Assembly (NCBI GenBank): GCA_003213455.1 | Contig: QCMX01000006.1 | Span: forward strand, 1 to 38,681 | DNA length: 38,681 nucleotides | Reading direction: 5' to 3' | DNA from: SAR86 cluster bacterium AG-422-P06 | Lineage (GTDB): Bacteria > Pseudomonadota > Gammaproteobacteria > Magnimaribacterales > TMED112 | Shown here: piece by piece, positions 7,733 through 33,979 of the stretch | Numbering within the stretch: position 1 is the first letter of the stretch | Layout of the letters: every line of letters starts with the position of its first letter | Notes under the pieces: model-generated | Databases searched by the model: none | Seen by the model: only the letters and a program-made list of their open reading frames with translations | Told to the model about the DNA's origin: nothing | Program-made: the position numbers and the translations under genes

Positions 7733-7797
7733 ATAAGATCCACGTATCTGTTTTTCAGAGCTCAAAATAGAGTAAAATGTTTATTAATAGGGGAGAT

Positions 7798-9882
7798 ATG
7801 AAATTAAATAAAACTTTAATCGTATTAATTATAATTCTGGCACTCAATGTTATTTACTTCACAGGAGCATATAAGTTTTTACAAAAAGATGTATCTCTCA
7901 ACATTGTGGATCACACACTCGAAGAAACGACTAGCAAAGTAAATGATGTTCCACCAAACCCAAACAAAAACCCTTATTTCGGCGACCTACATGTGCATAC
8001 GAGATACTCTTTTGATGCCTATGTTTTTGGCGTAACTGCTACCCCATACGATGCCTATAGATATGCCAAGGGTGAAATGATCAAACATCCTTTGGGTTAT
8101 GAAATGCAGATGAAAGAGCCTTTAGATTTTTATGCCGTTACCGATCACGCAATTTTTATGGGTATGATTCAAGAATACGGGGACCCAAATTCCAAACAAG
8201 CTAATACCGAATGGGCGAAACCATTTGAAAATATAAACAGAGAAGAGAATCGTACGGTTGAGTCTATGTCAGAGAGGTTAAATCTTTTTAGCTTGATGGC
8301 AGCTGATGGTTATTTAGACAGAGCATACCCTCTTTGGCATCCAAAAATATGGCAAGCTATTCTTACTAAAAATAGATCTGTTGGTTCCCAAGCATTTGAT
8401 TACCAAGTTCACAAGTCAGCTTGGGCAGATATTGCTAAAGCAGCTGAAGAACACAATGATCCTGGCAAATTTACAACCTTCATTGGCTATGAATATACTT
8501 CTGGTACAGATGTTGAGGGTGGAAATTTGCATAGAAATGTAATTTTTGAATCTTCTAAAGCACCGGAAAGACCCTTTTCAAGAGAAGACTCTTTAAACCC
8601 TATGGATTTATGGGCCTGGATGGACAAATTAAGAGCAAAAGGTCTGGACTCTATAGCAATTCCTCACAACAGCAATGGATCCAACGGAGAAATGTTTGAG
8701 GTCGAGACCTACTATGGGACACCGATTGATTTAGCATATTCTGAAAGACGTATGCGCAATGAGCCTATTGTTGAAATGACCCAAGTAAAAGGTACTTCAG
8801 ATACTCACCCACTACTTTCACCAGACGACGAATGGGCTGACTTTGAAATTATGGATGGCAGAGTAGGAGCAAGACCTCCAACCTATAGCTATCATCACGG
8901 GGGTTATGTTAGAGATGCATATCTACGAGGGCTAATGTTGGAGTGGAAAGGCCAAGGGAATCCATATAAATTTGGTTTGATTGGTTCTACTGACACACAC
9001 GTAGGTGCAGGAGCATACGATGAGGATAATTATTGGTCCAAGGTTGGGGTTATAGATGGCACCTCACTGGGTAGAGGCAGCACATCTTTAACAGAAGAAA
9101 GGGTTGAACAATTATTAGAATATGCAGAATACTACAATCAGCCTACGCCTTTCGAAGAAGTTGATGGTAAAAATTATGCTATAGGTTTTAAACAGTGGGG
9201 CGCTTCAGGCCTGGCAGCAGTTTGGGCAGAAGAAAATACTAGAGAATCAATCTTTTCAGCAATGAGAAGAAAAGAAGCATTTGCGACTACAGGGCCTAAA
9301 ATCACAGTGCGGTTTTTTTCTGGCTACGATTTAAGCTCAATAGATCTTAACTCTGAAGCCTTGGTTGATGAGGCTTACAAAAAAGGTGTGCCAATGGGGG
9401 CAGACTTATTTGCTGATGGCGATAAAGTGCCAGAGTTTATAGTTTGGGCACAAAAAGATAAATACTCAGCATCATTACAAAGAGTCCAGATTATTAAAGG
9501 ATCAATAGAGAGTGGCAACGCAAGACCAAGCGAGAAAGTGTTTGATGTTGTCTGTTCTGATGGTTTAGAAGTTGATCCAACCACCCATCGTTGTCCTGAT
9601 AATGGAGCGAGAGTAAACATAGATGATTGCTCTATCACTAACAATGTTGGCGCTACTGAGCTCAAGAAAACCTGGAAGGACCCAGAATTTAACCCAGAAG
9701 ACAAAGCTTTCTATTACGTCAGAGTGCTTGAGAACCCAACTTGTAGGTGGTCAACATGGGATGCTATAAAAGCTGGTGAAAAACCAAGATCCGACTTACA
9801 TAAAACGATACAAGAACGGGCCTGGTCGTCGCCAATTTGGTATGTACCAGTACCTCAAGATATAGATATATTCGCTCTATGA
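7798..9882 (+). CDS. DUF3604 protein, PHP-like secreted or anchored hydrolase
   Basis: A 694-residue protein of the DUF3604 family. The N-terminus (about residues 5-24) is a signal anchor, so the body should lie in the periplasm. Metal-ligand motifs of the PHP phosphoesterase type are in order: G-D-L-H65-V-H67-T, then F-Y-A-V-T-D-H, I-P-H-N-S-N-G, and I-G-S-T-D-T-H-V-G-A. This supports a multinuclear metal hydrolase, though the family's substrate is unknown to me. A TonB-type partner is not adjacent. The ATG at 7798 follows GGGGAGAT; an ATG at 7777 would add seven residues. The stop overlaps the start of the PpiC-like gene (ATGA). Confidence 0.88.
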   Translation: MKLNKTLIVLIIILALNVIYFTGAYKFLQKDVSLNIVDHTLEETTSKVNDVPPNPNKNPYFGDLHVHTRYSFDAYVFGVTATPYDAYRYAKGEMIKHPLGYEMQMKEPLDFYAVTDHAIFMGMIQEYGDPNSKQANTEWAKPFENINREENRTVESMSERLNLFSLMAADGYLDRAYPLWHPKIWQAILTKNRSVGSQAFDYQVHKSAWADIAKAAEEHNDPGKFTTFIGYEYTSGTDVEGGNLHRNVIFESSKAPERPFSREDSLNPMDLWAWMDKLRAKGLDSIAIPHNSNGSNGEMFEVETYYGTPIDLAYSERRMRNEPIVEMTQVKGTSDTHPLLSPDDEWADFEIMDGRVGARPPTYSYHHGGYVRDAYLRGLMLEWKGQGNPYKFGLIGSTDTHVGAGAYDEDNYWSKVGVIDGTSLGRGSTSLTEERVEQLLEYAEYYNQPTPFEEVDGKNYAIGFKQWGASGLAAVWAEENTRESIFSAMRRKEAFATTGPKITVRFFSGYDLSSIDLNSEALVDEAYKKGVPMGADLFADGDKVPEFIVWAQKDKYSASLQRVQIIKGSIESGNARPSEKVFDVVCSDGLEVDPTTHRCPDNGARVNIDDCSITNNVGATELKKTWKDPEFNPEDKAFYYVRVLENPTCRWSTWDAIKAGEKPRSDLHKTIQERAWSSPIWYVPVPQDIDIFAL

Positions 9883-24334: not shown

Positions 24335-24898
24335 ATGAATGATGCCTTAAAAAATATTCTTGAGCGGAACTCTCATCGCAATCTTGTTGAGCCAGCCCCA
24401 TCCTCAGAAGAAATGGATTTAATTTATAAGGCTGCACTTAGAGCTCCTGATCATGCTTGGCTAAGACCATCTAGCTTCATAGAGGTTCAAGGACAAGGGT
24501 TAGAACGTTTATCCAGGGCATTTAAAGATTTTGCTAAAGAGGAAATCGATAATTTAGAACAAGATAAGTTGGAGATATATGCAAATGCTCCTTTTAGAGC
24601 CCCTCTGGTAGTCATCCTAATCAATACGCCCAAAGAACACCCAAAGGTTCCTGAAGTTGAACAGATTATGTCAACTGCAGCTGCAGGACAAAATATTTTA
24701 TTGGCACTGAGCTCTCTTGGATATGGCGGAATATGGAGAACAGGCACATTCGCACTGAACAAAAAAGTAAATAAATATTTAGGCCTGAACTCTGACCAAA
24801 AAGTTTTAGGCTACTTGTATATTGGAACACCTGAAGGGAAGCAAAAAAATATTCCTGATTTAAATCCAAGCGATTTTGTCTCAAAGTGGAACTCCTAA
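24335..24898 (+). CDS. Nitroreductase family protein (YdjA-like)
   Basis: A 187-residue FMN-dependent oxidoreductase like E. coli YdjA. It has an N-terminal R-N-S-H-R-N (FMN-phosphate-binding type R-S-x-R), A-A-L-R-A-P-D-H-A-W-L-R-P, typical of YdjA, and a central stretch with Q-N-I-L-L-A and G-Y-G-G-I-W-R-T-G binding flavin. No ribosome binding site is apparent; a 13-pair hairpin ends 7 bases before the start. It is followed one base later by the ceramidase-like gene. The physiological substrate is unknown for this subfamily. Confidence 0.85.
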   Translation: MNDALKNILERNSHRNLVEPAPSSEEMDLIYKAALRAPDHAWLRPSSFIEVQGQGLERLSRAFKDFAKEEIDNLEQDKLEIYANAPFRAPLVVILINTPKEHPKVPEVEQIMSTAAAGQNILLALSSLGYGGIWRTGTFALNKKVNKYLGLNSDQKVLGYLYIGTPEGKQKNIPDLNPSDFVSKWNS

Positions 24899-24899
24899 A

Positions 24900-25841
24900 A
24901 TGAACCTTAAAGTCTTTTATATTCCACTTAGCATTTCAGGATTATTCTTTTTTATTTATTTTTTATTAGCATCAACCACAAACTTCTTGTCTGTAGAGCC
25001 TGGCTATGCAATTGGTGAAATTTCTAGGTGGTGTGAGAGGATTAGTGGCGGCCATTTTAGAGAGCCAGCTAATGCTCTAAGCAACATTGGTTTTATGCTT
25101 ACAGGTTTGCTCATGTTTTGGATACTGGCAAATGAAAAAAAAGTAGAAGGCAGCAGATTTCATGGGCCAACTATTACTGCTCTTACCTATGCCACTGCTG
25201 CTGTATTCTTAGGTCCAGGCTCAATGCTTATGCATGGAACACATACTGCTTGGGGGCAATGGGCAGATTGGCTTAGCATGATAATGTGGATATCTATACC
25301 TTGGTTAGTCAATGTATTCAGTATCAATGATTGGAAAGAATCGCTCTTTTTGAAGACTTATTTAATGATTATTGGAATATATGGGATATTAAGTTGGTTC
25401 CTTGGGACAGGTCTTGGTATAAATTTCAACTTTTGGTTTCTCTCAATTTCTTTATGGACAATAACTGAAGTTTTACAGGCATTTTATACCCCAATAGTTA
25501 GATACTTATCAGGCTTTGTTGGTATTTTAGTTATGTCTGTCTTTGGTGTTTTCCCAAATGAGATTATTAATAATTTAGATCAGTTTTGGTGGATAGTTTT
25601 ATTTTGGATCCCAGCTGTCTTTATAGACAAAAAGCACAAAACAAATAAGAGATATTTCCCTTGGTACTGGTTGGGGATATTGTTCTATATGTCCGCATTT
25701 GCAATATGGTTACAAGGATACCCAGAACAGCCTTTATGTAATCCAGACTCTATTTTTCAGCCACATGCTATTTGGCATCTGTTAAGTGCTTGTGCCACTT
25801 TATCTTTCTTCTTTTTCTTTCGAACAGCTACAACTAAATAA
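24900..25841 (+). CDS. Alkaline-ceramidase-like membrane hydrolase (CREST)
   Basis: A 313-residue protein with seven or so transmembrane helices. The ATG at 24900 was chosen over a TTG at 24876 inside the previous gene. It has all five residues expected for the zinc site of alkaline ceramidases, with the right spacing: S108 and H112 (G-S-M-L-M-H), D123 eleven residues later, and H289-x3-H293 (H-A-I-W-H) near the C-terminus. It also has the W-C-E (44-46) and A-N-A-L-S-N-I-G (57-64) patterns of the first helices. It would cleave an amide bond in a lipid. True ceramide in this organism is not shown, so another N-acyl lipid is possible. Confidence 0.82.
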   Translation: MNLKVFYIPLSISGLFFFIYFLLASTTNFLSVEPGYAIGEISRWCERISGGHFREPANALSNIGFMLTGLLMFWILANEKKVEGSRFHGPTITALTYATAAVFLGPGSMLMHGTHTAWGQWADWLSMIMWISIPWLVNVFSINDWKESLFLKTYLMIIGIYGILSWFLGTGLGINFNFWFLSISLWTITEVLQAFYTPIVRYLSGFVGILVMSVFGVFPNEIINNLDQFWWIVLFWIPAVFIDKKHKTNKRYFPWYWLGILFYMSAFAIWLQGYPEQPLCNPDSIFQPHAIWHLLSACATLSFFFFFRTATTK

Positions 25842-25859
25842 TTCTATTAGAATAAAAGA

Positions 25860-26708
25860 ATGACAGAATTAACTGTTACACAAACCTTATCTATAGGTTT
25901 GCCTATAGCCTTTCTTATAATTTTGCTTGAGGCAGGAATCTCCTCTTGGCAAAAGAAAAATTTATACACCAAAAAAGACACCTTATGCACTCTTGGTCTT
26001 TTGGCAGGCAATATGGCGGCAGTTTTTATGACCAAAGGAGCTACACTAGCTTTCCATATTTTTTTGTATCAATTTAGGGTTTTTGATTTAGCTGCATATA
26101 TTCCTATTTGGGTCATGTGGCTTCTCTCATTTCTTTTGATTGACCTAGTTTTTTATTTTTATCACAGGATGTCGCATCGTATTAGTTTTCTGTGGGCCAT
26201 ACATATGAGTCATCACTCAAGCCAAGAAATGAATTTTGCAGTTTCATTTAGACAGGCTTGGTTTGGCCCAATTTCTAAAGTGCCTTTCTTTATGGTGTTG
26301 CCACTTTTGGGGTTTGATCCAACAATTATTGCTGTAGCAGGTGCTTTGAGCACATTATGGGGTATTGTTGGTCATACTCAAATGATCAAATCTCTTGGGC
26401 CTCTTGAGCTAATACTAAATACACCATCTCATCATCGCGTTCATCATGGCGCTAATAGTCAGTATATTGATAAAAATTACGGAAACTTATTAATTATTTG
26501 GGATAAATTTTTTGGAACTTTTGAGCCTGAAAAAGAAAAAGTGAAATACGGACTAGTAAAAAATGTTAATACCTATAACCCAGTAAAAATTACTTTCATG
26601 GCATGGCAAGATATAATAAAGAATATGCGTCATTCAGATAACACAGCACAAGCACTGAAATATTTATTTGGACCTCCAAACACAAAACAAAGGGGTGGGT
26701 TGCAATGA
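25860..26708 (+). CDS. Fatty acid hydroxylase / sterol desaturase family protein
   Basis: A 282-residue integral membrane di-iron oxygenase. The eight-histidine pattern is visible: H102-x3-H106 (YHRMSH), H115-x2-H118-H119 (HMSHH), and H191-H192-x2-H195-H196 (HHRVHH), with extra His between. Four hydrophobic helices carry these. Members hydroxylate or desaturate lipid chains or sterols; in bacteria some act on sphingolipid or ornithine lipid chains. It follows the ceramidase-like gene by 18 bases, so both may act on the same lipid. It overlaps the next gene by four bases. Confidence 0.9.
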   Translation: MTELTVTQTLSIGLPIAFLIILLEAGISSWQKKNLYTKKDTLCTLGLLAGNMAAVFMTKGATLAFHIFLYQFRVFDLAAYIPIWVMWLLSFLLIDLVFYFYHRMSHRISFLWAIHMSHHSSQEMNFAVSFRQAWFGPISKVPFFMVLPLLGFDPTIIAVAGALSTLWGIVGHTQMIKSLGPLELILNTPSHHRVHHGANSQYIDKNYGNLLIIWDKFFGTFEPEKEKVKYGLVKNVNTYNPVKITFMAWQDIIKNMRHSDNTAQALKYLFGPPNTKQRGGLQ

Positions 26709-27001
26709 GAAAATTAGGGCTAGGCTTAGCTTATTTGTGCATATATACAACACCAATTCAAATTGGCATCATAATTTGGCAACTAATAATAATCTTCACA
26801 AGTGATTACACCTTTTTAGGCATGTCTACTAAAGAATTTCTCGTGGATAATCTAAAGTTTTTACACGATTGGGTTTACTCTTGGTTTTGGAACGCTCTTC
26901 TAGATTTTCTCTATCAATTCCCTGCTGTCATTATGAGTACACTTAAGACAATAGTTAATTATTATTTGGGCTTTTGGTTATTAGATAAGTGTAAAAATTA
27001 A
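26705..27001 (+). CDS. Small membrane protein
   Basis: A 98-residue hypothetical protein with two hydrophobic segments (about 8-33 and 55-90) and many aromatic residues (W, F, Y). No family was recognised. It overlaps both neighbours (four bases with the hydroxylase, one base with the alpha/beta hydrolase), so it is part of the same translational unit. It may be an accessory subunit of one of those membrane enzymes. Confidence 0.6.
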   Translation: MRKLGLGLAYLCIYTTPIQIGIIIWQLIIIFTSDYTFLGMSTKEFLVDNLKFLHDWVYSWFWNALLDFLYQFPAVIMSTLKTIVNYYLGFWLLDKCKN

Positions 27002-27699
27002 TGAGAATAATTTTATTGCTCATTAGCATAGGCATTCTAAATGCAGATACTTTGAGCGAGCTAAATGAAATAAATGCATCAGATGGCCCTTTTATTGCAG
27101 GAAAGAAGCTAACAAAACTCAAACCTGGCATTCATTATTTGGAAGAGAAGAATACAGAACAGAGCGAGCTAGTAATAGCCGTTCATGGTTGGAAAACCAA
27201 AGGATTTGAATGGGTTTATCCGCTCCTTGAGCTTAATAAAGAAGAAAATAGGATTGCTTTTTTTCGCTGGAAAACAACAGGCTGCCCTAATAAGGCGACT
27301 GAACAATTGCTTAACATTATCAATCGTCAATTACCAAACTATGACAAGATTGTTCTTATGGGACACAGTTATGGCGGGATAATACTGGCTAACTTAATGC
27401 AGGAAGATTTTTCTAAACAAATAGATATGCATATTATTGCTTCTGGTATTTCAGGTGACCCAAGGTTAAATTCTTTTTGTGGCTATGAGGCTCCAACTAA
27501 AACGGGTGTAAATGTAAATGGTTATCAGTGGATGACACAAAAAAATCTTGATGGCGCATTTAAAGACTTAAGAACAGATACACAAATTCAGAATATAGAA
27601 GGAGTTTCTGCTGTAAGGTTGCCAGAAGAATATAAAGGTAATACATTATCACACAACCGGTCTATAAGTTGGCTGGTAGATTTTTTAAACTCTAATTAG
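27001..27699 (+). CDS. Secreted alpha/beta hydrolase
   Basis: A 232-residue protein with a signal peptide (about 1-15, ending L-N-A-D) and an alpha/beta hydrolase core. It has H62-G-W (oxyanion region) after strand 3 and the nucleophile elbow G-H-S123-Y-G-G. A C-terminal histidine in L-S-H-N-R-S is a candidate catalytic His. Lipase or esterase activity in the periplasm is the likely type. It overlaps the small membrane protein gene (TAATG) in a lipid-related cluster. Confidence 0.82.
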   Translation: MRIILLLISIGILNADTLSELNEINASDGPFIAGKKLTKLKPGIHYLEEKNTEQSELVIAVHGWKTKGFEWVYPLLELNKEENRIAFFRWKTTGCPNKATEQLLNIINRQLPNYDKIVLMGHSYGGIILANLMQEDFSKQIDMHIIASGISGDPRLNSFCGYEAPTKTGVNVNGYQWMTQKNLDGAFKDLRTDTQIQNIEGVSAVRLPEEYKGNTLSHNRSISWLVDFLNSN

Positions 27700-27701
27700 A
27701 T

Positions 27702-28676
27702 ATGCTGCCTAAAATTTTAGAAAACAATTTATCTGTGCCAGTAGTGGGCGCTCCGTTATTTATTATTTCTAGACCACAGTTAGTTATTGCGCAATGCAAA
27801 GCTGGAGTCGTGGGATCTTTCCCTGCTCTAAATGCTAGACCACAAGAATTATTATCTGATTGGATAAAAGAAATTAAAGACGAGCTAGGACAATTTAAAG
27901 AAGATAACCCTGACAAGCCTGTAGCACCTTTTGCAGTAAACCAGATTTGCCACCTTTCTAACGATAGGCTTTTTAAAGATGTAGAGACATGTGTTAAACA
28001 TGAAGCTCCCATAATAATCACTTCACTTAGACCGCCAGAAGACCTAGTAAAAGCGATACATTCATATGGTGGTTTAGTTTTTCATGACGTTATTAGTACA
28101 AGGCATGCACAAAAAGCTGTTGAACAGGGAGTAGATGGTTTAATTCTTGTTTGTGCTGGAGCAGGAGGACATGCTGGAGCACTTTCTCCTTTTGCCTTGC
28201 TTAGGGAAACACGCGAATGGTACGATGGGACAATCTTGCTCTCAGGGTCAATATCAGATGGCCACTCTGTAGCTAGTGCTATCGCCATGGGTGCAGATCT
28301 TGCTTATATTGGAACACGTTTTATTGCCACAGAAGAATCAGAAGCAGATGATGGATATAAAAAAATGTTAATTGAATCAGCAGCTAAAGACATAGTTTAT
28401 ACAAACTACTTTAGTGGAGTGCCTGGCAACTACCTAAGTCCATCAGTGGAAAAGGCGGGAATGGATCCTTTAGCTTTACCGGAAGCAGACAAGACTAAGA
28501 TGAACTTCAATTCAGGCGGCAATGCGTCAGCAAAAGTATGGAAAGATATTTATGGTTCAGGACAAGGCATCAATGCTATTAAAGACTCACCAAAAGTAGC
28601 AGACCTAGTTGAACAAATGAAAACGGAATTTCAGCAAGCAAGAAGCGAATTTAGCGCTAAATCTAATAATTACTAA
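27702..28676 (+). CDS. NAD(P)H-dependent flavin oxidoreductase (nitronate monooxygenase family)
   Basis: A 324-residue TIM-barrel FMN enzyme. Family traits are the opening P-V-V-G-A-P-L-F (FMN site), the G-V-V-G-S-F-P strand, the helix with D-V-I-S-T-R-H-A, and the A-G-A-G-G-H-A-G motif with the catalytic-region His, then I-A-M-G-A-D-L-A-Y-I-G-T-R-F binding the FMN phosphate. It would oxidise nitronates or reduce quinone-like acceptors; the exact reaction is open. It begins two bases after the alpha/beta hydrolase. Confidence 0.9.
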   Translation: MLPKILENNLSVPVVGAPLFIISRPQLVIAQCKAGVVGSFPALNARPQELLSDWIKEIKDELGQFKEDNPDKPVAPFAVNQICHLSNDRLFKDVETCVKHEAPIIITSLRPPEDLVKAIHSYGGLVFHDVISTRHAQKAVEQGVDGLILVCAGAGGHAGALSPFALLRETREWYDGTILLSGSISDGHSVASAIAMGADLAYIGTRFIATEESEADDGYKKMLIESAAKDIVYTNYFSGVPGNYLSPSVEKAGMDPLALPEADKTKMNFNSGGNASAKVWKDIYGSGQGINAIKDSPKVADLVEQMKTEFQQARSEFSAKSNNY

Positions 28677-28708
28677 AAAAAGATTCCTCCTTCAAGTATA
28701 ATAATTTT

Positions 28709-29497
28709 GTGGAAATAGCAGCTTTTACAATCTCAATTTTTGCCTTAGTAATAGGCTTATTAGCTCTAGGGCTCGCTATGCGTGCTTTATACATTATTGG
28801 TGTTAATGCTGGCCTTGATAAACAATTTGAAGCTGAGCCAAAACAAACTCCAGCACCAGTAACTATAAAAAAAGAATTTAAACAGCCTTTGCGCAAAGAA
28901 GGTAACAAAATAATTTATAACGAAGACCCTCTGATTTATGTAATAGAAGATTTTATTTCAGATGATGAATGCAACCACTTTGTTGAAGCTTCAAATACTA
29001 AGCTTGAAAGAGCAAAAACAATTGGAGGTAAAGATGGAATTTACCACGAAAATAGAACTGGAAGTAATTGCTGGTTACCACACAATCATTCAAATTTAAC
29101 AACTGAAGTTGGACAGAGGATTGCAGACTTAATTGGATTCCCATTAAAAAATGCTGAATCTTTTCAGATAGTTTACTATACAGGCGGTACTCAATATAAC
29201 GACCACCATGATGCATTTAACGATGCAACCGATGAAGGAAAAAAACACTTAAAAAGAGGCGGCCAAAGAATTTACACAGCTATCGCTTATCTAAATGATG
29301 TTGAAGAAGGTGGAGATACTGAATTTAGAGATCTGAATATATCCATTAAACCAAAAAAAGGGTCAATTTTGGTTTGGAAAAACGTTTTACCTGGAACAAC
29401 AAAAGTACATCCATTATCGCTGCATGCAGGGAGGCCTGTTACTGGCGGTGAAAAATATGCCTTCAACCTTTGGTTTAGAGAAAACAAATTTGTTTGA
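28709..29497 (+). CDS. Membrane-anchored prolyl-4-hydroxylase-like 2OG-Fe(II) dioxygenase
   Basis: A 262-residue protein starting at GTG. The N-terminus (about residues 4-30) is a transmembrane anchor. The catalytic domain (about 70-260) has the iron triad H166-x-D168 and H239, and K249 for 2-oxoglutarate. Conserved prolyl-4-hydroxylase motifs are G-G-Q-R-I-Y-T-A, Y-L-N-D-V, G-G-D-T-E-F, and H-A-G-R-P-V. A TATAAT lies 6 bases before the GTG, so the gene may have its own leaderless transcript. The protein target is unknown. It is followed 3 bases later by uvrD. Confidence 0.9.
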   Translation: MEIAAFTISIFALVIGLLALGLAMRALYIIGVNAGLDKQFEAEPKQTPAPVTIKKEFKQPLRKEGNKIIYNEDPLIYVIEDFISDDECNHFVEASNTKLERAKTIGGKDGIYHENRTGSNCWLPHNHSNLTTEVGQRIADLIGFPLKNAESFQIVYYTGGTQYNDHHDAFNDATDEGKKHLKRGGQRIYTAIAYLNDVEEGGDTEFRDLNISIKPKKGSILVWKNVLPGTTKVHPLSLHAGRPVTGGEKYAFNLWFRENKFV

Positions 29498-29500
29498 TAA

Positions 29501-31672
29501 ATGGATGTATCTTATATCCTTGATGATCTGAATGATGCGCAACGCGAAGCAGTCACTTCAGAATCAAAAAAGCTTCTTGTATTAGCAGGAGCAGGTTCAG
29601 GCAAAACAAAAGTTCTAGTACACAGAATAGCCTGGCTTATTAAAGCACTCTCAAACTCTACTCATAGCATTCTCTCAGTTACTTTTACAAACAAAGCAGC
29701 AAATGAAATGACAGGCAGAATTGAAAGCATTCTTGATCAGCCAATACCAGAAATGTGGTGCGGCACATTTCACTCAATCTCAAACCGCCTATTACGTCGA
29801 CACTACAAAGAGGCAGGGCTTGAAAAAGATTTCAATATTTTAGATAGCGATGACCAGCTAAGAATAATCAAAAGAAATTTAAAAGATTTAGATATTGATG
29901 AAGATCAATGGCCAGCAGAAAAAGTTAGGTGGCAAATAAATAACTGGAAGGATGAAGCTTTAAGACCCAAAGATGTTGATGATAAAGGGGATTTTAATTT
30001 AGAAACCTTAAAAAGAATTTATACCTACTACGAAAACTATATGCAAAAAGAAAACCTGATAGATTTCGCAGAATTAATTTTAAGGTCCTATGAGTTAGTA
30101 AGAGACAACAAAGAAATAAAAAAGCTTTATCAAAGTAAATTTAGAAATATTCTTATAGATGAATTTCAAGACACAAACGAAATTCAATTTAAATGGATCA
30201 AGAATTTAACCGGTGATGAATCAACAGTAACGGCAGTAGGCGATGATGATCAGTCTATCTATGGCTGGCGTGGAGCAAAAATTGAAAATATCAACAAGTT
30301 TTCGAAAGAGAAAGAGACTTCGATTGTTAGGTTGGAGCAGAACTACAGGTCAACACAAAAGATTCTTAATGCTGCAAATGCTGTCATAGGAAAAAACTCT
30401 AATAGGCTGGGAAAGAAGTTGTGGACTGAAGGCAATGAGGGCGATCCAATAGAAGTTTATGAAGCATACAATGAACAAGAAGAAGCGAATTACATAGCAG
30501 AAAATGTACATAGAATATTTGCAGGAGGAGATTGTTATAAAGATATAGCAGTTCTTTATCGCTCAAATGCGCAATCCAGAACCATTGAAGAATATTTGTT
30601 GAGGCAGAATTTGCCATACGTCATTTATGGCGGTGTTAGATTCTATGAGAGGCTAGAAATAAAGAATGTTCTTTCCTACTTAAGACTTATTGTTAATAGA
30701 AATGATAATTCAGCATTTGAAAGAGCTATTGGGGCGCCAACAAGAGGCATAGGAGAAAAGACGCTAGAAACAATCAGAACATATGGGCTTGAAAACGAAC
30801 TATCATTATTTAGTTCATGTAAAGGCCTAATCAAAGATGAGATTATTAAAGGCAAAGCAGCCAACTCCCTACAGCTATTCATTAATTTTATAGAAAGTTG
30901 TGCAGAGACAATAAATGACCTTCCCTCAGATGAATTTGTAGAAAAGGTAATCAATGAAAGCGGCTTGATAGATCATCATATGAAAGAAAAAGGGGAGAAA
31001 GGCAGAATCAGAATTGAGAATATTAATGAGCTCATCTCAGCACTTAAGTCTTTTGAACTTATAAATAAGCATGAGGACCTTTCTGACTATGATTCCTTTA
31101 TTGCAGCATTTTTAAGCTCAGTTTCACTAGACATGGGTGAAACACAGGCCTCGAAGACCGATGATGCTGTACAGCTTATGACCATGCATTCTGCCAAAGG
31201 ATTAGAATATAAGTACGTCTTTATGGTAGGAATGGAAGAATCTCTTTTTCCACATTCAAGATCCATGGAAAATCTTAATGAGCTCGAAGAGGAAAGGCGC
31301 CTTTGTTATGTCGGCATAACAAGAGCAAGAAATAAACTATTTTTAACATACACAGAATTTAGGAGGCTATATGGGCAAGACTCCTATAACCCTCCTTCTA
31401 GGTTTATAAATGAAATTCCTCAAGAATGTTTGGAATTTGTGAGGCCCAAACAAACATACAAAAATTCATATTATGGCTCCGTTGTTTCAGAGAATTTAAG
31501 TCAAGGCGGCAATGAATATGGTCTAGGGGATCGAGTTATGCATAAAAGTTTTGGGGAGGGGGTAATCTTGAGCATTGAAGGTCAAAGTGATTCTGCTCGT
31601 GTTCAAATTCATTTTGATTCAGCAGGTACAAAATGGCTTGTTATGGCATATGCAAATTTAGAAAAGCTATGA
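29501..31672 (+). CDS. uvrD: DNA helicase II UvrD
   Basis: A 723-residue SF1A helicase closely following E. coli UvrD in length and order. The N-terminus is M-D-V-S-Y-I-L-D-D-L-N-D-A-Q-R-E-A-V (Q motif); Walker A is A-G-A-G-S-G-K35-T; motif II is D-E-F-Q-D-T; motif III is G-D-D-D-Q-S-I-Y-G-W-R-G; motif V/VI is T-M-H-S-A-K-G-L-E and Y-V-G-I-T-R-A. A C-terminal Tudor-like RNA-polymerase-binding segment (G-D-R-V-M-H-K-S-F-G-E-G) is present. It unwinds DNA in excision and mismatch repair. Its stop overlaps the lipB start (ATGA). Confidence 0.97.
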   Translation: MDVSYILDDLNDAQREAVTSESKKLLVLAGAGSGKTKVLVHRIAWLIKALSNSTHSILSVTFTNKAANEMTGRIESILDQPIPEMWCGTFHSISNRLLRRHYKEAGLEKDFNILDSDDQLRIIKRNLKDLDIDEDQWPAEKVRWQINNWKDEALRPKDVDDKGDFNLETLKRIYTYYENYMQKENLIDFAELILRSYELVRDNKEIKKLYQSKFRNILIDEFQDTNEIQFKWIKNLTGDESTVTAVGDDDQSIYGWRGAKIENINKFSKEKETSIVRLEQNYRSTQKILNAANAVIGKNSNRLGKKLWTEGNEGDPIEVYEAYNEQEEANYIAENVHRIFAGGDCYKDIAVLYRSNAQSRTIEEYLLRQNLPYVIYGGVRFYERLEIKNVLSYLRLIVNRNDNSAFERAIGAPTRGIGEKTLETIRTYGLENELSLFSSCKGLIKDEIIKGKAANSLQLFINFIESCAETINDLPSDEFVEKVINESGLIDHHMKEKGEKGRIRIENINELISALKSFELINKHEDLSDYDSFIAAFLSSVSLDMGETQASKTDDAVQLMTMHSAKGLEYKYVFMVGMEESLFPHSRSMENLNELEEERRLCYVGITRARNKLFLTYTEFRRLYGQDSYNPPSRFINEIPQECLEFVRPKQTYKNSYYGSVVSENLSQGGNEYGLGDRVMHKSFGEGVILSIEGQSDSARVQIHFDSAGTKWLVMAYANLEKL

Positions 31673-32268
31673 AAAATCTTCAAATAAAAGAGCTTGGCCT
31701 AGTAAATTTTGAAGAAACCTACCAAGCAATGTTGGAATTGATTGCCACTAAGCCAAATTATCATTCAATTTGGTTGCTTGAGCACAATCCTGTTTTTACT
31801 ATTGGCATTAGTGAAAAAAATATCCGAGAAGATAAGACGAGAACCCCACCATTCCTAAAAACAGATAGAGGAGGAAAAACAACTTTTCATGGCCCAGGCC
31901 AATTAGTGCTTTACTTTATACTCAATATGAAAGGTTTGCCTTTCCCGCCAACCAAACTTACCAGCAAAATTCTAGAGAATGCTTTAGAGGTTCTAGAGGG
32001 TCTTGGTCTTAAGGGCAATATTCAAGAAAAAGACCCTGGAATTTTTATAGAAGGTAAGAAAGTTGCATCAATAGGCATGAGGATAAAGAAAAACTATTCT
32101 TACCATGGGCTAAGTGTGAATATTGACACAGATCTGCAGACATTTAATACAATTAAACCTTGCGGATTAGATGTAGAGGCTTGTAATCTAAAAGATTATA
32201 TAGATATTAATGGACTGGAGCTTAAGGATAAGCTCTTAGCAAAATATAAAAAAATACTTACAAAATGA
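31669..32268 (+). CDS. lipB: Octanoyltransferase LipB
   Basis: A 199-residue enzyme that moves octanoate from acyl carrier protein to lipoyl domains. The ATG at 31669 overlaps the uvrD stop; an upstream in-frame ATG at 31633 lies inside uvrD and was rejected. Key motifs are D-R-G-G-K, F-H74-G-P-G-Q-L-V, Lys131 (K-K-V-A-S-I-G) and Cys165 (K-P-C-G-L), the catalytic Lys/Cys pair. It overlaps lipA by four bases, forming a lipoate synthesis unit. Confidence 0.95.
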   Translation: MKNLQIKELGLVNFEETYQAMLELIATKPNYHSIWLLEHNPVFTIGISEKNIREDKTRTPPFLKTDRGGKTTFHGPGQLVLYFILNMKGLPFPPTKLTSKILENALEVLEGLGLKGNIQEKDPGIFIEGKKVASIGMRIKKNYSYHGLSVNIDTDLQTFNTIKPCGLDVEACNLKDYIDINGLELKDKLLAKYKKILTK

Positions 32269-33239
32269 GAGACCTAATACCAACAGTTAAAATTACAAAT
32301 CATGCTGGAGTTAAATCTATAAAAGATGGTATGAAAAGTAACTCATACTCAAATATTGAAAGAGAAAAAAAGCCAAGCTGGATAAGAATGACAGCCAATC
32401 AAGCTAATCAAAATTACACATTAATCAAAAATAAAGTAAAGCATCTTAATTTGAGTACAGTATGCGAGGAAGCTAAGTGCCCAAACCTATCAGAATGCTG
32501 GTCACGAGGGACAGCTACTTTTATGTTAATGGGTGATACATGTACTAGAGCTTGCCAATTTTGCTCAGTCAACACAGGAAACCCTAAAGGCTGGCTAGAC
32601 AAAGAGGAGCCTAGTAAGATTGCTGAGACCATAGCTGTTATGGACCTAAAATACATTGTTCTTACATGTGTTAATAGAGATGACATAAGTGATGGAGGAG
32701 CACAACACTTTGCAGATACAGTAAACGCGATTAAAAAATTAAGCCCGAAAACCGAAGTTGAAGTGCTTACATCCGATTTTAATGGCGCATATGATTCTGT
32801 TGAAACAGTGGTAAATTCACCAATAAAAGTCTTTGCACAAAACATAGAGACAGTTGAAAGACTTACACACCCTATACGTGATCCCAGAGCTGGCTACAAA
32901 AAGACTTTAGATGTATTACAGATGGCAAAAGAAATAAATGCAGACATGATTACTAAATCGAGCATAATTCTCGGCCTAGGTGAAAAAGAAGAAGAAATTT
33001 ACCAAACCTTTAAGGACTTAAGAGATCATAGTGTTGATATCGTTACATTAGGACAATACCTCAGACCCACACTTAATCATCATCCAATTGATAGATGGGT
33101 GACACCAGAAGAATTTGATCTTTACAGAAAAGTGGGACTAAAATATGGTTTTTTAGAAGTGATTTCTAGTCCTATGGCTAGATCTAGTTATCGAGCAGAG
33201 AGAGCTCTAGACTTCAATAATGCAGGAATAAAAGTATGA
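32265..33239 (+). CDS. lipA: Lipoyl synthase LipA
   Basis: A 324-residue radical-SAM enzyme that inserts two sulfurs into protein-bound octanoyl groups. The auxiliary cluster cysteines are C67, C72 and C78 (C-x4-C-x5-C), the radical-SAM cysteines are C93, C97 and C100 (C-x3-C-x2-C), and the C-terminal R-S-S-Y-R-A-E supplies the serine ligand of the auxiliary cluster. Its start overlaps lipB and its stop overlaps yaaA, both by ATGA. Note that the usual neighbour genes dacA and ybeD are absent. Confidence 0.97.
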   Translation: MRDLIPTVKITNHAGVKSIKDGMKSNSYSNIEREKKPSWIRMTANQANQNYTLIKNKVKHLNLSTVCEEAKCPNLSECWSRGTATFMLMGDTCTRACQFCSVNTGNPKGWLDKEEPSKIAETIAVMDLKYIVLTCVNRDDISDGGAQHFADTVNAIKKLSPKTEVEVLTSDFNGAYDSVETVVNSPIKVFAQNIETVERLTHPIRDPRAGYKKTLDVLQMAKEINADMITKSSIILGLGEKEEEIYQTFKDLRDHSVDIVTLGQYLRPTLNHHPIDRWVTPEEFDLYRKVGLKYGFLEVISSPMARSSYRAERALDFNNAGIKV

Positions 33240-33979
33240 TCGTAATTTCGCCAGCAAAAAGATTAGCAGCCAACAAAAGTGATAGCTTATTAGAGGCAAC
33301 AATACCAGTCTTCAAAAAGGAGGCCGATCACTTGGCAGAACAATTAGCAAAGTTAAGCACAGAAGAACTAAGCTCAATGATGAAAGTGAGTGAAAGCATA
33401 GCTGAACTTAATGCTAATAGATTTAGAAATTGGAATAAAAACGACGCTGTAGAAAAAAGAGCAATTTTTCAATTTGAGGGGGATGTTTTTAAGCATCTTG
33501 GAGCAAATGACTTAAATGAAGATCAAATTCAATATATGAATAACAATCTTAGAATATTGTCAGGGATATATGGATTGCTGAAACCGTCTGATGAAATGAA
33601 CCCGTACAGATTAGAAATGGGAACAAGACACAATTTTAGTGGTTCAGTAAGTCTGTATGAGTTCTGGGGCAATAAAATTGCAAAAGAGCTTTCCGATGAG
33701 CTCGGTAATGCATATTTATTTAATTTAGCTTCGGAAGAATATTTTAGCTCTGTTAGTAAATTTCTAAATTCTGAAAAAATTATCAACTTTAGATTTCTAA
33801 CCCTGAGCAATGGCAAAGCGAAAGTTGTAGGAGTTATTGCAAAACGTGCAAGAGGTGAGATGGCTAAGTATTTGATTCAGAATAAGGTCGCAGCCAACGA
33901 GGGAATCGAAAAATTTTCAGCCCTAGGATTTGAATTTAAAGAATTCAAGGATAATTGTTATACCTTTATTAGCTCTTAG
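33236..33979 (+). CDS. yaaA: Peroxide stress protein YaaA (DUF328)
   Basis: A 247-residue protein matching E. coli YaaA, which lowers free iron under peroxide stress and binds DNA. The family signature M-I-V-I-S-P-A-K at the start, S-E-x-I-A-E-L-N-A-x-R, the central Y-G-L-L-K-P-S-D, the Y-R-L-E-M-G-T-R motif, and A-R-G-x-M-A near the C-terminus are all present. Cotranscription with lipA, whose clusters are oxidation-sensitive, makes biological sense. The 3' end overlaps a 51-residue minus-strand ORF by 11 bases. Confidence 0.93.
   Translation: MIVISPAKRLAANKSDSLLEATIPVFKKEADHLAEQLAKLSTEELSSMMKVSESIAELNANRFRNWNKNDAVEKRAIFQFEGDVFKHLGANDLNEDQIQYMNNNLRILSGIYGLLKPSDEMNPYRLEMGTRHNFSGSVSLYEFWGNKIAKELSDELGNAYLFNLASEEYFSSVSKFLNSEKIINFRFLTLSNGKAKVVGVIAKRARGEMAKYLIQNKVAANEGIEKFSALGFEFKEFKDNCYTFISS

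Follow-up and report, generated by a model that had tools for sequence, protein, structure and literature searches.

Which lipid would an alkaline-ceramidase-like enzyme act on in SAR86, and do the genes that lie beside its own act with it? The gene that raises this question, here called cer, encodes a membrane hydrolase of 313 amino acids (24900..25841, + strand) on contig QCMX01000006.1 of SAR86 cluster bacterium AG-422-P06 (assembly GCA_003213455.1; 687,513 bases, 66% complete); positions 1–38,681 of this contig, read on the forward strand, are the window of our analysis. cer and the three genes that follow it, which encode a fatty acid hydroxylase, a small membrane protein and an alpha/beta hydrolase, fill positions 24900–27699 exactly, all on the + strand, and an earlier note made from the letters alone had read them as one lipid cluster. 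By family, motif and fold, cer is a CREST-superfamily hydrolase of the ceramidase Pfam family. Its likeliest role, which we hold at somewhat under even confidence, is that of a periplasm-facing zinc amidase freeing fatty acids from scavenged N-acyl lipids, its putative substrates, for beta-oxidation, and its gene neighbours are probably not its partners.

cer matches the Pfam family Ceramidase (PF05875; E-value 5e-11, 42.9 bits, cut-off 32.5), the sole family to exceed its cut-off; the SID-1 family match remained sub-threshold (14.2 versus 28.7 bits). Numbered from the ATG at 24900 (an alternative TTG at 24876 in the open reading frame list would overlap the upstream gene), the catalytic residues are S108, H112, D123, H289 and H293, with spacings (S-H 4, H-D 11, H-H 4) identical to those of S77/H81/D92/H217/H221 in the human alkaline ceramidase ACER3, and they form the CREST pattern SxxxH...D...HxxxH of three histidines, one aspartate and one serine. 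We followed these residues through 53 loci. Besides the window, these are 12 named contigs and 40 stretches, each about 12 kb long, from other genomes, the latter taken from 88 cer places; the first 30 short loci stand outside the 53-locus counts. The 53 are not all separate: some genomes were counted twice, as is apparently the case for L043 and L118, and many loci come from members of the same genus. H112, D123, H289 and H293 are each present in 53/53 loci and S108 in 52/53. In named contigs labelled SAR86 cluster or Gammaproteobacteria the cer genes are 53–88% identical, and all five residues are invariant in three Bacteroidota homologues of 22–23% identity (L044, L045 and L046). Retention of the catalytic residues across the SAR86 loci and the Bacteroidota homologues excludes chance as the source of the motif, and the ceramidase-like site with ACER spacing that had been proposed from the window is thereby upheld. 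Alanine replacements at the corresponding ACER3 residues are described as abolishing activity, with S77A causing an approximately 600-fold decrease (PMC9436119). By homology to ACER3, H112, H289 and H293 would bind zinc, D123 would position the attacking water and S108 would stabilise the oxyanion.

The AlphaFold2 model of cer, computed from an input of 14 sequences, has a pLDDT of 88.9 and a pTM of 0.88. In a VIA-align comparison, ACER3 (PDB code 6g7o; PF05875) ranked first (Z 19.5, 3.3 Å over 216 residues, 15% identity), and the first 27 rows were all CREST or Myomaker structures, so that cer has the seven-helix core fold of the superfamily as well as its catalytic motif. Other CREST-type structures (SIDT, SID-1, AdipoR and Myomaker) followed at Z 15.6 and below; PAQR/AdipoR and SID-1/SIDT thus share the CREST fold and type of zinc site with cer but score lower than ACER3. 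Foldseek ranked the same model differently, with SIDT2 first (1.4e-4) and ACER3 12th (4e-3). Sequence searches of the PDB with cer returned nothing in one case and two chance-level matches in the other, and a scan of viral contigs found no relative. Two loci with ambiguous bases (L032 and L040) were excluded from the structure alignment.

Beyond the zinc site, cer shares with ACER3 the N-terminal residues W-C-E and, after them, a conserved glutamate. In ACER proper, a disulfide joins the N-terminal loop to the helix before last (C21-C196 in ACER3), and C45 and C280 of cer, which are invariant in the 53 loci and in the three Bacteroidota homologues, may match this bridge. The differences are substantial: identity is only ~15%, the H112-H289 interval is 41 residues longer than H81-H217 of ACER3, and an extra helix (residues 3–26), absent from ACER3, precedes the ACER3-matched region, which begins at residue 27. 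The Bacteroidota proteins likewise carry an N-terminal hydrophobic segment and equivalents of C45, E46 and C280, but they are shorter from the fourth helix to HxxxH and lack the SAR86-type R43-W44.

The distribution of charge bears on which way the site would face. Lysine and arginine are frequent at residues 78–91, 242–254 and the C-terminus, and hardly occur at residues 169–176, 215–229 and 273–287; the loop at 27–55 contains three of them, but more acidic residues. The lysine plus arginine count of the cytoplasm-side loops minus that of the periplasm-side loops is positive in 53/53 cer sequences, with a median of 8. Taken together, the extra N-terminal helix and this positive-inside pattern predict that residues 27–55, C45, C280 and the zinc end are periplasmic, with both the N- and C-termini cytoplasmic. 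This predicted orientation is opposite to that of ACER3, whose N-terminus, calcium loop and disulfide are placed on the cytoplasmic side in PMC6303388. The same report calls the calcium loop, D19WCE(X)N24 together with E33, strictly conserved in the ACER family. The equivalent loop of cer reads R43-W-C-E-R-I48 plus E55, so that W44, C45, E46 and E55 are kept, whereas the D19 position is arginine (R43) in 52/53 loci and the N24 position (48) is I, V or L in 53/53. Because its calcium loop is altered, cer lacks a feature that defines the ACER family in the strict sense, and the arginine may stand in for calcium. A bolder proposal, which we regard as unlikely, is that cer is an inside-out, calcium-independent ceramidase, in which the added helix turns the ACER3 machinery to the periplasm, R43 (possibly with R47) serves as a built-in cation salt-bridging E46/E55, and the enzyme mines planktonic ceramides. 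Were this so, eukaryotic sphingolipids would be linked directly to bacterial beta-oxidation in a very abundant bacterium of the surface ocean. The altered loop also offers a natural test of the calcium dependence of ACER enzymes, for which the SAR86 set supplies dozens of sequences.

If cer cleaves N-acyl lipids, are these made by the cell or taken from others? The earlier note had suggested modification or turnover of an N-acyl lipid, possibly a sphingolipid, and proposed a search for the genes of serine palmitoyltransferase (SPT) and of ornithine lipid synthesis. Over 203 genomes of the SAR86 order, 85 had some match to the SPT model NF047599 and none exceeded its cut-off, which two of 14 control genomes did. 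Nine of the sub-cut-off proteins were classified: seven are glycine C-acetyltransferases (G183, G190, G195, G131, G142, G098 and G165), that of G006 is a 5-aminolevulinate synthase, and that of G100 is unassigned. The G100 protein, an alpha-oxoamine synthase (L144, G100:C1:8200-9450) from a genome without cer, lies nearest to the SPT models and under every cut-off (212 versus 640). The 21 genomes that represent the window's genus gave no match to the OlsB-type domain PF13444; its matches in 39/203 genomes all belong to other genera and are weak (maximum 27.3 bits). We therefore rejected synthesis of the cell's own sphingolipid or ornithine lipid by the known genes, on searches that found none in the genus, the window's own genome being only 66% complete. 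For those genes this is one of the two outcomes that the earlier note had required for a refutation, the lack of a pathway; cer may still act on such lipids when they come from outside. A major facilitator superfamily transporter at ~17.4–18.6 kb, tried as a candidate sphingosine exporter, gave general matches to its superfamily only and was also set aside. What stands of the turnover proposal is the ceramidase-type zinc hydrolase; what falls is its place in the cell's own sphingolipid or ornithine-lipid metabolism. Since the relatives of the window's genome have no recognisable ceramide-making gene, digestion of the lipids of other plankton is likelier than the building of their own.

The surroundings of cer in other SAR86 genomes are consistent with such a catabolic role. 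Genes for etfB, etfA and ETF-ubiquinone-oxidoreductase lie beside cer in 15/53 loci, all from SAR86 family f3, and in 10 of them (L096, L103, L105, L106, L108-L111, L114 and L115) etfA immediately precedes cer, with a gap of 0–10 bp in 8/10, which suggests an etfB-etfA-cer transcript in this family. These loci are related to each other and do not count as independent. ETF takes electrons from the acyl-CoA dehydrogenases of beta-oxidation. In the study devoted to the first isolate of SAR86, beta-oxidation is presented as central and rich in genes, and complex lipids are proposed to be broken down in the periplasm (PMC11582366); a periplasm-facing amidase fits both this picture and the etf neighbours. 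The string "ceramid" is absent from the text of that study, and our literature search found no ceramide turnover route for sphingolipid carbon or nitrogen described for SAR86. In the role we favour, N-acyl lipids, including ceramide-like ones, would be taken up from other plankton and cleaved at the amide bond in the periplasm, and their fatty acids, once released, would enter the beta-oxidation that SAR86 depends on. cer would act alone; that the genes of the hydroxylase, the small protein and the alpha/beta hydrolase lie next to it would mostly be due to chance, the genome being compact. If true, a widespread ocean lineage without recognisable sphingolipid synthesis could turn over the ceramides of plankton, opening a route for sphingolipid carbon and nitrogen.

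Several observations weigh against this role. Linkage to the etf genes was seen in a single SAR86 family and not in the window's genus. The sequence of cer does not distinguish amide from ester cleavage, and two ligands of the calcium loop required by ACER3 are replaced (D19 to R43, N24 to I/V/L48). cer occurs in 89/203 genomes of the order and in 23/40 high-quality ones; its absence from the other 17 implies that it is not essential to the lifestyle. Finally, the FemAB-like family PF04339 exceeds its cut-off in 164/203 genomes, and some of its members may be N-acyltransferases, which would make an N-acyl lipid of the cell's own possible. PF04339 had been searched for as a candidate relative of ceramide synthase; no text linking the two was found, and we draw nothing from this family.

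An own lipid is also the substrate in the best surviving alternative, in which cer strips N-acyl chains from the cell's periplasm-facing amide lipids (lipoprotein N-acyl groups, lipid A or an aminolipid) as envelope upkeep. A site on the periplasmic face would see such lipids, and the wide occurrence of cer in many contexts is what might be expected of a housekeeping gene; the same absence from 17/40 high-quality genomes argues the other way, as does the lack of any consistent envelope-gene neighbour in the 53 loci, and we consider this explanation improbable, on a par with the inside-out ceramidase. Slightly less probable still is a lipid esterase or phospholipase, whose identical zinc site would cut ester-linked glycerolipids, as proposed for Per1/PGAP3 and reported for SIDT2. 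Predicted ester hydrolases are listed among CREST members in PMC3146951, the title of the SIDT2 structure paper reports lipid-hydrolytic activity (PMC10272179), and SIDT2 and SID-1 are the best Foldseek matches of cer, but VIA-align favours ACER3 by ~4 Z units, and Ceramidase is the one Pfam family whose cut-off cer exceeds.

Far less probable is the four-gene module of the earlier note, in which cer, the hydroxylase, the small protein and the alpha/beta hydrolase jointly modify or turn over an N-acyl lipid of the cell's own. The genes are adjacent and co-directional in the window and a few close relatives. The window is compact, however, with a median same-strand gap of 1.5 bp and 23/34 gaps of 20 bp or less, so adjacency carries little weight. 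For the co-occurrence count, G057 was dropped (19.5 bits, with stops inside), leaving 88 genomes with cer, and the hydroxylase was counted only above 300 bits. By this measure, the hydroxylase is found in 110/203 genomes, 58 of which also have cer; the hydroxylase occurs without cer in 52 genomes, and cer without the hydroxylase in 30. The association across the 203 genomes is weak (odds ratio 2.3, p 0.004, uncorrected for kinship). Both genes are on one contig in 28 genomes; the distance between them is at most 2 kb in 7 of these and between 2 and 10 kb in another 14. The 21 pairs within 10 kb favour a module, but the 7 within 2 kb are few against the 58 genomes that have both genes. The small protein fares worse: it occurs in 67/203 genomes, 47 of them without cer, a negative association on which we rejected it as a partner of cer and as coupled to cer across the order, although within the window's genus it often lies beside cer (2 kb or less in 12 genomes). 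The absence of SPT over cut-off in the order and of the OlsB-type domain in the genus likewise disfavours a module acting on an own lipid. The four genes differ in phyletic distribution, and apart from a few members of the window's genus they are seldom side by side; what had been read as a "lipid cluster" is a gene string specific to a lineage rather than a conserved unit. The least probable explanation is a non-enzyme, for although CREST-fold receptors, transporters and structural membrane proteins such as PAQR, SID-1 and Myomaker share the fold, all five catalytic residues are retained in 52/53 loci, and a single one is replaced in the remaining locus.

The neighbours of cer in the 53 loci are varied. 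Directly upstream, a nitroreductase gene (11/53 loci) is about as frequent as etfA (10/53); downstream, we observed an opposite-strand glutathione S-transferase (15 loci), the hydroxylase (6 loci) and the small protein (5 loci). Four loci of one genus (L092, L093, L094 and L095) carry a gene for a secreted-looking amidohydrolase (PF01979) directly upstream of cer.

Relatives of cer outside SAR86 make its presence in a gammaproteobacterium only mildly notable. Among 276 genomes sampled evenly across the class, a few of them from SAR86, 7 from outside SAR86 gave a weak match. CREST proteins of bacteria, chiefly Proteobacteria, that lie close to the alkaline ceramidases were described in 2011 as of unknown function (Pei et al. 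2011, PMC3146951); that report urges that its "hypothetical groups 1 and 2", which cluster with the alkaline ceramidases and to which SAR86 cer may be close, be tested for ceramidase activity.

Of the three genes after cer, the hydroxylase gene fah (25860..26708, + strand, 282 amino acids) encodes a di-iron membrane oxygenase of the fatty acid hydroxylase / sterol desaturase family, which confirms the assignment in the earlier note: it matches PF04116 at 5.7e-29 (101.6 bits, cut-off 31) and contains the histidine boxes HRMSH, HMSHH and HHRVHH. OlsE (NF052566) is the only NCBIfam family clearly similar to fah (7e-20), but at 71.5 bits against a cut-off of 475 fah is not OlsE by that rule. Its structure model is poor (pLDDT 51.4), and a PDB sequence search gave one chance-level match. 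A second fatty acid hydroxylase family protein, of ~420 amino acids and 34% identity to fah, is present in many SAR86 genomes (e.g. G000:C8:19285-20079). The small membrane protein (26705..27001, + strand, 98 amino acids) has no Pfam or NCBIfam match over cut-off. The alpha/beta hydrolase (27001..27699, + strand, 232 amino acids) has Pfam matches that are all sub-threshold (PGAP1/Abhydrolase, best 0.0013) and weak esterase matches only in a PDB sequence search; its assignment holds nonetheless through the GHSYGG nucleophile elbow, with H122, S123 (the nucleophile-elbow serine), G125, G126 and also H218 invariant in 14/14 loci. Its hydrophobic N-terminus, judged by eye, suggests that it may be secreted.

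These genes belong to a longer run at 24335-33979 of eleven co-directional, nearly gapless genes of unrelated functions. A nitroreductase-family gene (24335..24898, + strand; PF00881, 3.6e-21) precedes cer, and the alpha/beta hydrolase is followed by a nitronate monooxygenase / FabK-like gene (27702..28676, + strand; PF03060, 1.4e-26), a 2OG-Fe(II) oxygenase, a UvrD/Rep-like helicase, LipB, LipA and a YaaA-like protein, the last four named by eye. Elsewhere in the window, at 7777-9882, a DUF3604 protein of 701 amino acids gives a very strong family match (740 bits).

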